Shown in pieces: positions 33,616 to 34,611 of a stretch of 47,061 nt of DNA; the first letter of the stretch is position 1; each line of letters starts with the position of its first letter. Made by a program: the position numbers and the translations under genes. The notes beneath the pieces were generated by a model. The model was not told the DNA's origin and searched no databases. It saw only the letters and a program-made list of their open reading frames with translations. The DNA comes from Promineifilum sp. (GTDB lineage Bacteria > Chloroflexota > Anaerolineae > Promineifilales > Promineifilaceae), in the NCBI GenBank assembly GCA_018058545.1, contig JAGOZU010000016.1:1-47061 (forward strand), in the 5' to 3' direction.

Positions 33616-34611
33616 ATGACACGATTCGCTCAAATACTTTCCACCGGCAGTTATGTCCCCGAACGCGTTGTCAGCAACGCCGAGATCGATCAGCTCCTTG
33701 GTGAATCGACAGGCGACTGGCTGGTCGCCAACGTGGGCATTCGCGAGCGTCGCTGGATGGCGCCCGACCAGACCACCTCCGACCTGATCGTCGAGGCCTC
33801 CAGGAAAGCGCTCGATAAGGTAGGGATCAGTCCTGAGCAATTGAACCTGATCATCGTCTCCACCGACACGCCCGACTTCCCATCGCCCGGCACTTCTGTG
33901 GTGGTGCAGCATAAGCTGGGCGCAGTCAATGCCGGAGCGTATGACGTCAACAGCGCCTGCGCGGGTTGGGTGGCGGCGCTGGATCAGGGCGCGCGCTATA
34001 TCGCCACCGATGAGGCCATGAAGTACATCCTCGTGGCCGGTGGTTATGGCATGAGCCGTTTCCTCGACCTGACCGACAAGAAAACAGCCAATCTGTTCGC
34101 CGATGGCGCGGGCGCGGCCGTCCTCGGCGCGGGCGATAAACCCGGCTTCCTGGCGGGCAACTTTCTGGCCAAGGGAGAGTTCTACGACGCGTTAGGTATC
34201 TACGGTGGCGGCGCGGCCCGGCCCAGCACGCCCGAGAACGTGGCTCTCTACGGCCCGCCCAAGGTCGAGTTCGTCAAGAAGTTTCCGCGTACCTTCAATA
34301 CCGACTATTGGCCCAAGCTAATGCAGGGCGCGCTCGACAAGGCCGGACTCACCTTCGACGACATCGATCATTATCTGTTCACCCAGCTTAACCTGCGCAC
34401 CATTGAGGCCATGATGGAGTTGATCGGGCAGCCGCTGGAGAAAGCCCACTGGGTGATGGACAAATGGGGTTACACCGGTTCCCCCTGTGTGATCATGGCT
34501 CTCGACGACGCCATCGAAAACGGCCGCGGCCCCCAACCGGGAGAGCGTGTCCTGTTCTGCGCCAGCGGTGGCGGGATCAGCATGGCGGCGTCCGTCTGGC
34601 AGTGGGTATGA
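33616..34611 (+). CDS. KAS III-like (thiolase-superfamily) protein lacking the catalytic His and Asn
   Basis: This 331-residue protein has the 3-oxoacyl-ACP synthase III fold (ILSTGSYVPERVVSNAEID, the TSDLIVEASRKALDKVGI segment and NSACAGWVAALDQGARYI with C115). The usual His of PHQAN is replaced: LFTQLN has T256. The usual Asn of GNTS is replaced: GYTG has Y286. It therefore cannot run the standard decarboxylating Claisen reaction by the known Cys-His-Asn triad. It may be an acyltransferase or a non-decarboxylating enzyme. AGGT precedes the ATG. It begins the cluster of CoA ligases and hydrolases; the next gene starts 6 bases later. Confidence 0.82.
   Translation: MTRFAQILSTGSYVPERVVSNAEIDQLLGESTGDWLVANVGIRERRWMAPDQTTSDLIVEASRKALDKVGISPEQLNLIIVSTDTPDFPSPGTSVVVQHKLGAVNAGAYDVNSACAGWVAALDQGARYIATDEAMKYILVAGGYGMSRFLDLTDKKTANLFADGAGAAVLGAGDKPGFLAGNFLAKGEFYDALGIYGGGAARPSTPENVALYGPPKVEFVKKFPRTFNTDYWPKLMQGALDKAGLTFDDIDHYLFTQLNLRTIEAMMELIGQPLEKAHWVMDKWGYTGSPCVIMALDDAIENGRGPQPGERVLFCASGGGISMAASVWQWV

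Follow-up and report, generated by a model that had tools for sequence, protein, structure and literature searches.

The KAS III-like gene and its cluster

The window, that is the whole 47,061-nucleotide stretch of Promineifilum sp. DNA analyzed here, carries a gene cluster in the order MalT/SARP-type regulator, KAS III-like protein (KAS), acyl-CoA ligase 1, alpha/beta hydrolase, SDR, ligase 2, a further alpha/beta hydrolase and a Liv-type importer (Table 1). The KAS ORF has no internal stop, and the two KAS III domains, PF08545 and PF08541, exceed the Pfam cut-offs in its translation. FabH proteins are its top-scoring solved relatives in phmmer searches. A 563-aa antisense ORF (34318-36009, minus strand) covers KAS and ligase 1 with no sign of being a gene. 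Antisense ORFs of this kind recur in these operons and confuse simple ORF picking.

Table 1. Features of the KAS III-like gene and its neighbors, by position in the window
Feature	Position	Strand	Basis
MalT/AfsR-SARP-like regulator, 1085 aa; lies ahead of KAS in many relatives	29941..33198	+	profile match, synteny
KAS III-like protein, 331 aa, D84/C115/T256/Y286	33616..34611	+	translation, Pfam, alignments, structure model
Asp84 codon, column of HMG-CoA synthase catalytic Glu	33865..33867	+	alignment; codon place computed from ORF start
Cys115 codon, nucleophile position (E. coli C112)	33958..33960	+	alignments
Thr256 codon (E. coli H244)	34381..34383	+	alignments
Tyr286 codon (E. coli N274)	34471..34473	+	alignments
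Acyl-CoA (AMP-forming) ligase 1, directly after KAS	34618..36165	+	profile match, PDB matches, synteny
Alpha/beta hydrolase 1; closest solved relative poly(3-hydroxybutyrate) depolymerase	36181..37236	+	
FabG-like SDR, probable 3-hydroxy/3-oxoacyl-CoA oxidoreductase	37249..38007	+	
Acyl-CoA ligase 2	38056..39627	+	profile match
Alpha/beta hydrolase 2, enol-lactonase-like	39635..40459	+	profile match
LivK-type substrate-binding protein of importer	40587..41990	+	homology in operon
LivG + LivF ATPases	42099-42878, 42879-43595	+	by eye and synteny
LivH + LivM permeases	43606-45114, 45129-46259	+	by eye and synteny

Active-site residues and fold

Residues 115, 256 and 286 of the KAS III-like protein are C, T and Y. 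They align with C112, H244 and N274 in a full-length alignment to FabH of E. coli MG1655. When aligned by HMMER with solved KAS III chains, among them E. coli FabH, they fall on the catalytic Cys, the PHQAN His and the GNTS Asn. The two motifs read FTQLN and GYTG and are free of gaps in the phmmer alignments to the solved chains. Only the Cys of the FabH Cys-His-Asn triad is kept. The first-pass annotation had named these same replacements, and both alignments bear out its residues and coordinates. The combination is called C-T-Y below, and that of FabH C-H-N.

Residue conservation was tabulated for 77 sequences thinned at 88% identity, 65 with Y286 and 12 others. Cys115 is present in all 77. 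An Asp at position 84, a further change that the first-pass annotation did not mention, occupies all 65 Y286 rows and none of the 12 others. Y144, W232 and G288 are likewise found in 65/65 Y286 rows, and T256, H278, W284 and C291 each in 64/65. The alignment was also inspected for a shifted His or Asn that might replace the missing triad members, a possibility raised at first pass, and none was found. H278, eight residues ahead of Y286, is the only nearly invariant His in the tabulated columns; D297 is nearly invariant as well.

The column of D84 holds the Glu of the GSES motif in an alignment with ten Chloroflexota HMG-CoA synthases, and the stretch between this residue and the Cys differs between the two families by one inserted residue. 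In the archaeal-type HMG-CoA synthase the counterpart of Glu95 lies in the GSES motif. Glu95 was reportedly described as an acid/base by Chun et al. in 2000. The triad of the human enzyme is Glu95-Cys129-His264 (PMC13220267). FabH-type rows carry T, S, A, C or V at column 84. The association of D84 with T256 and Y286 comes from rows related by descent, not from 65 independent events, and may represent one event.

FabH R36 and R249 touch CoA and ACP. The R36 position is N, S or K in 65/65 Y286 rows, and the Arg at the R249 position is kept in 46/65.

AlphaFold2 run on the 77-row alignment gave a confident FabH-fold model (mean pLDDT 96.2). Among the best 50 matches listed, Z scores to KAS III-type structures range from 40.1 to 47.5, with the top match reaching 47.5 over 320 residues at an rmsd of 1.7. 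FabH structures score Z 46-47 at about 31-35% identity to the model, and Foldseek ranks FabH first. None of those best 50 structural matches is CerJ, OleA or HMG-CoA synthase, which may rank further down.

Distribution and selection

Whole-genome protein searches found full-length relatives at 59-89% identity in 20 of 58 other genomes, together with one partial relative and two at 43-44%. All 23 full-length proteins from these searches, the window included, are C-T-Y. In the wider set of 30 full-length relatives, again with the window, 23 are C-T-Y and the other seven are FabH-type, all with Asn, six of them having His and one Gly in the His column; the partial row, which also has T and Y, was left out of this count. 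One relative from a plasmid record, 44% identical, is annotated 'ketoacyl-ACP synthase III'.

A further 99 loci, at least 80 from a contig scan and 19 from a phylum search, were then compared, some of their contigs overlapping the whole-genome protein search. Among the matches listed, 93 of the 99 are C-T-Y, one is C-N-Y, and five, which are more distant relatives, are C-H-N. The contig scan used two clade peptide patterns, one of them just ahead of Y286, and is therefore biased toward C-T-Y; the whole-genome searches, free of such patterns, give the same picture. The phylum search matched 21 of 400 genomes at E <= 1e-60 (16 C-T/N-Y, 5 C-H-N). With 16 such genes among 400 genomes the distribution is patchy.

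Same-genus dN/dS ranges from 0.058 to 0.118 in the four of five pairs computed, the fifth sequence containing N. A second KAS III of the same genome, 36% identical, keeps C-H-N and is a canonical FabH, so the FabH function has another candidate in this genome. The recurrence of C-T-Y within a conserved gene cluster, the low dN/dS and the separate FabH indicate that the protein is probably a distinct enzyme and not a decayed copy.

C-T-Y genes also occur in Competibacteraceae (Pseudomonadota) records (L127:9998-11005 and L131:9911-11008) and in a Chloracidobacterium MAG (L123:3632-4621). These copies are nested among Chloroflexota in the tree described below, by horizontal transfer or binning error.

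Relationship to known KAS III families

The departure from FabH and OleA proposed at first pass is supported by the curated models. The protein misses both FabH cut-offs (TIGR00747, 203.4 of 292.1 bits; PRK09352, 234.4 of 249 bits) and that of PRK09258 (82.3 of 285 bits), presumably the OleA model. It is far from the HMG-CoA synthase models (TIGR01835, 19.1 of 360 bits; PRK04262, 58.6 of 244 bits). It also stays below the curated cut-off of PRK06840 (129 of 315 bits) and has Y286 in place of the His of that family.

The maximum-likelihood tree has 67 rows, one relative (L170) being left out for a stop in its read, and was taken without CerJ, ChlB3, DpsC and PqsC. All C-T-Y rows and the C-N-Y row form one clade (support 98/95), which lies outside FabH, OleA and HMG-CoA synthase, three of the families named at first pass. 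Its sister group is PRK06840 with its in-operon members (97/96). Long branches (1.0 to 3.0) lead to PRK06840, OleA and HMG-CoA synthase, so the sister relation to PRK06840 could result from long-branch attraction.

PRK06840 (NCBIfam NF005308, '3-oxoacyl-ACP synthase') resembles the C-T-Y protein in lacking the FabH His and in its operon type, but has a His at column 286 and is about 22-27% identical. KAS III-like proteins of this family, with a Cys-x-His pattern, are encoded in the same kind of operon at L034:1929-3005, L045:5562-6641, L109:12815-13858 and L213:12031-13083; they occur with or without a C-T-Y protein in the operon. A Glu in the PRK06840/K2 sister group was considered as the equivalent of D84 and rejected, as a one-residue insertion blurs the column and the residue there is Ser or Met in part of the group.

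With FabH the C-T-Y protein shares fold, length, the Cys nucleophile and about one third of its residues, but FabH has His for Thr256, Asn for Tyr286 and Thr/Ser81 for Asp84, and the FabH Arg36 is lost. HMG-CoA synthase has the same Cys and an acidic residue in the catalytic Glu column (Asp in our protein, not Glu), whereas its columns 256 and 286 still hold His and Asn. OleA and PpyS combine the KAS III fold and CoA substrates with an added carboxylate base (PMC4578411). Unlike the C-T-Y clade they keep C-H-N, and their extra Glu, which reaches across the dimer, stands at column 90, where the clade has S or T. The OleA combination of Cys-His-Asn and Glu117 at the dimer interface is thus replaced in the window protein by T256, Y286 and S90.

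The fold and the superfamily are known. No paper on a Thr/Tyr KAS III or on the residue set D-C-T-Y was found among the open-access papers searched.

Gene neighborhood

Same-genus and more distant genomes retain the operon genes in shuffled order. Neighborhoods were counted in at least 80 contig loci of varied length and in a separate set of eight loci from a branch at 42-46% identity. Among the 80 loci listed, homologues of ligase 1 are present in 71, hydrolase 1 in 48, the SDR in 47, hydrolase 2 in 46, the regulator in 40, a thiolase in 33, livK in 31, a DUF35 protein in 29 and PhaC in three. Ligase 1 immediately follows KAS in 59 of the 75 listed loci with room for it.

In the 42-46% branch the SDR, livK, livG and livF are each present in 8/8 loci, and thiolase and DUF35 genes in four loci each. 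A ligase 1 homologue occurs in one of these loci. A class I CoA-transferase is present in seven instead and directly follows KAS in six; its best NCBIfam match, butyryl-CoA:acetate CoA-transferase, is far under the cut-off (304 of 675 bits). Two unrelated CoA-activating enzymes in one slot suggest that the KAS may take as its substrate the CoA ester of an imported acid, or something made from that ester. The C-T-Y genes of the Competibacteraceae records have no ligase, which indicates that one nearby is not strictly required. ORFs upstream of the gene in L127 resemble pyruvate dehydrogenase components by eye, and no acyl-CoA ligase or CoA-transferase was found among the seven neighbors scanned in L131.

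Some loci carry additional genes of note. An acetyl-CoA hydrolase/transferase domain and a LivK-like periplasmic-binding-protein domain form a single in-frame protein at L034:3794-6277 (827 aa) and L196:7313-9769 (818 aa). The linker has no signal peptide, and the ligand-binding domain of this CoA-transferase thus seemingly stays in the cytoplasm. Small four-helix genes of the '23S rRNA-intervening sequence protein' or bAvd-like type lie between operon genes in two unrelated loci (L045:7765-8217, L045:13804-14328 and L196:6892-7263).

Proposed reaction and alternatives

We tentatively propose that the protein is a CoA-dependent, non-decarboxylating C-C bond enzyme that uses Cys115 and Asp84 within a conserved acid-uptake and CoA-activation operon. 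This reading is possible, if still short of probable, and in it we infer every catalytic role as well as the direction and substrate of the reaction. In FabH the His and Asn serve malonyl decarboxylation and the oxyanion hole. Cys115 would accept an acyl group from CoA, as acylation should still be possible without His and Asn. Asp84, at the HMG-CoA synthase Glu position, could act as general acid/base in the formation or quenching of an enolate. Tyr286 and Thr256 may replace the oxyanion-hole side chains of Asn and His, their OH groups being able to donate hydrogen bonds. The predicted outcome is non-decarboxylative making or breaking of a C-C bond, either retro-Claisen cleavage of a 3-oxoacyl-CoA or a Claisen or aldol condensation. 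The adjoining SDR would interconvert 3-hydroxy- and 3-oxoacyl-CoA.

C-C chemistry is supported by the invariance of Cys115 and D84, the place of D84 in the HMG-CoA synthase Glu column, the single clade and the low dN/dS. Further support comes from the presence of a CoA-activating enzyme right after KAS, whichever family supplies it, the SDR (47/80 and 8/8 loci), the loss of FabH R36 and the confident FabH-fold model. The Tyr of Ltp2/Sal, in another branch of the superfamily, is a precedent for the role of Tyr286. In these steroid aldolases of the thiolase superfamily a Tyr took over the catalysis of C-C cleavage (PMC12329534). They differ from the C-T-Y protein in belonging to the SCP-2 thiolase branch, with YDHF/YDCY motifs, and not to KAS III; a DUF35 partner, moreover, is not a constant neighbor of the C-T-Y protein. 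Several points count against C-C chemistry. Asp is shorter than Glu, D84 may have arisen with T256 and Y286 in one event by descent, and the Competibacteraceae gene occurs without a ligase. A second C-C cleaving enzyme also needs explaining where the locus already encodes a thiolase.

The main rival is an acyltransferase or thioesterase without C-C chemistry, in which the acyl group of Cys115 would pass to an alcohol, amine, thiol or water and D84 or Y286 would activate the acceptor. Acylation of the Cys could survive the loss of His and Asn, the hydrolases and ligases of the operon fit ester metabolism, and CerJ and ChlB3 are precedents, being KAS III-fold enzymes that transfer acyl groups with a changed triad (PMC9573744). 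However, CerJ and ChlB3, which we compared by description only, use Cys-His-Asp and so still have a Cys-activating His, and the window protein has no His at column 256 or 286. A general, non-targeted scan of the operon genes recognized no acceptor-making gene (glycosyltransferase, carrier protein) either, and we regard the rival as somewhat unlikely. The first-pass annotation had suggested an acyltransferase or other chemistry. Chemistry other than decarboxylative condensation is indeed likely, and the acyltransferase is one option for it; the place of D84 in the HMG-CoA synthase Glu column and the acyl-CoA setting of the operon speak for making or breaking C-C bonds just as much or more.

The KAS could instead act with the operon thiolase and DUF35 protein as a subunit of their complex, in the manner of PhlA or of an HMG-CoA synthase subunit. 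Precedents are PhlABC and a thiolase/HMGCS/DUF35 complex of archaea (PMC6392133). Four loci (L191-L193 and L195) have the order KAS, CoA-transferase, thiolase, DUF35, and a thiolase-DUF35 pair lies elsewhere in the genome of the window. This arrangement is nonetheless quite improbable. Both genes are absent from the window and from most close loci, the pair accompanies PRK06840 instead in L213, and in the part of L215 that was read neither KAS accompanies it. A catalytically idle relative retained for binding or regulation would explain the absence of two of the three FabH catalytic residues, but is very unlikely given a Cys115 kept in every row, the invariance of D84 and Y286 in the clade and the strong purifying selection. 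The least probable reading is that of an ordinary FabH-type condensing enzyme whose missing His and Asn are made up for by other residues, the similarity to FabH in fold and sequence notwithstanding. The curated FabH cut-offs are missed, a canonical C-H-N FabH is encoded elsewhere in the genome, and H278 is the sole candidate for a shifted His or Asn in the tabulated columns.

Proteins homologous to KAS III are commonly given the annotation FabH and with it a presumed role in initiating fatty-acid synthesis. The C-T-Y proteins form a large, well-separated clade that bears this name by homology, but their residues should not permit the known mechanism of FabH. If D84 truly substitutes for His and Asn, these proteins would represent a second route, besides HMG-CoA synthase, to carboxylate-catalyzed C-C chemistry on the KAS III fold. 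They would also provide a handle on an acid-uptake pathway found in many Chloroflexota. A broader extension of the C-C bond proposal, which we consider unlikely, is a new thiolase-superfamily class of Asp-Cys-Thr-Tyr enzymes on the KAS III fold that would form or cleave C-C bonds in CoA esters and need neither His nor Asn nor decarboxylation. With the sister PRK06840 it would form a His-less branch serving one widespread acid (possibly 3-hydroxyalkanoate) pathway of Chloroflexota.

Other pathway assignments

A role in ring or ferulate catabolism was considered and set aside; the two best PDB matches to ligase 1 include a feruloyl-CoA synthetase, which is the sole hint of such a role. An Ole-type olefin or beta-lactone operon, which is built from these same gene classes (KAS, ligase, hydrolase and SDR), was not adopted, as the OleA cut-off is missed, Glu117 is absent and the SDR is FabG-type. 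PHA metabolism was rejected as a general role because PhaC is found in 4 of 59 genomes, this one not among them, and in three of the 80 loci listed. It may still apply in some cases: PhaC is encoded within or next to a few of the clusters (L059, L034/G036, L076 and L196), and hydrolase 1 resembles a PHA depolymerase.
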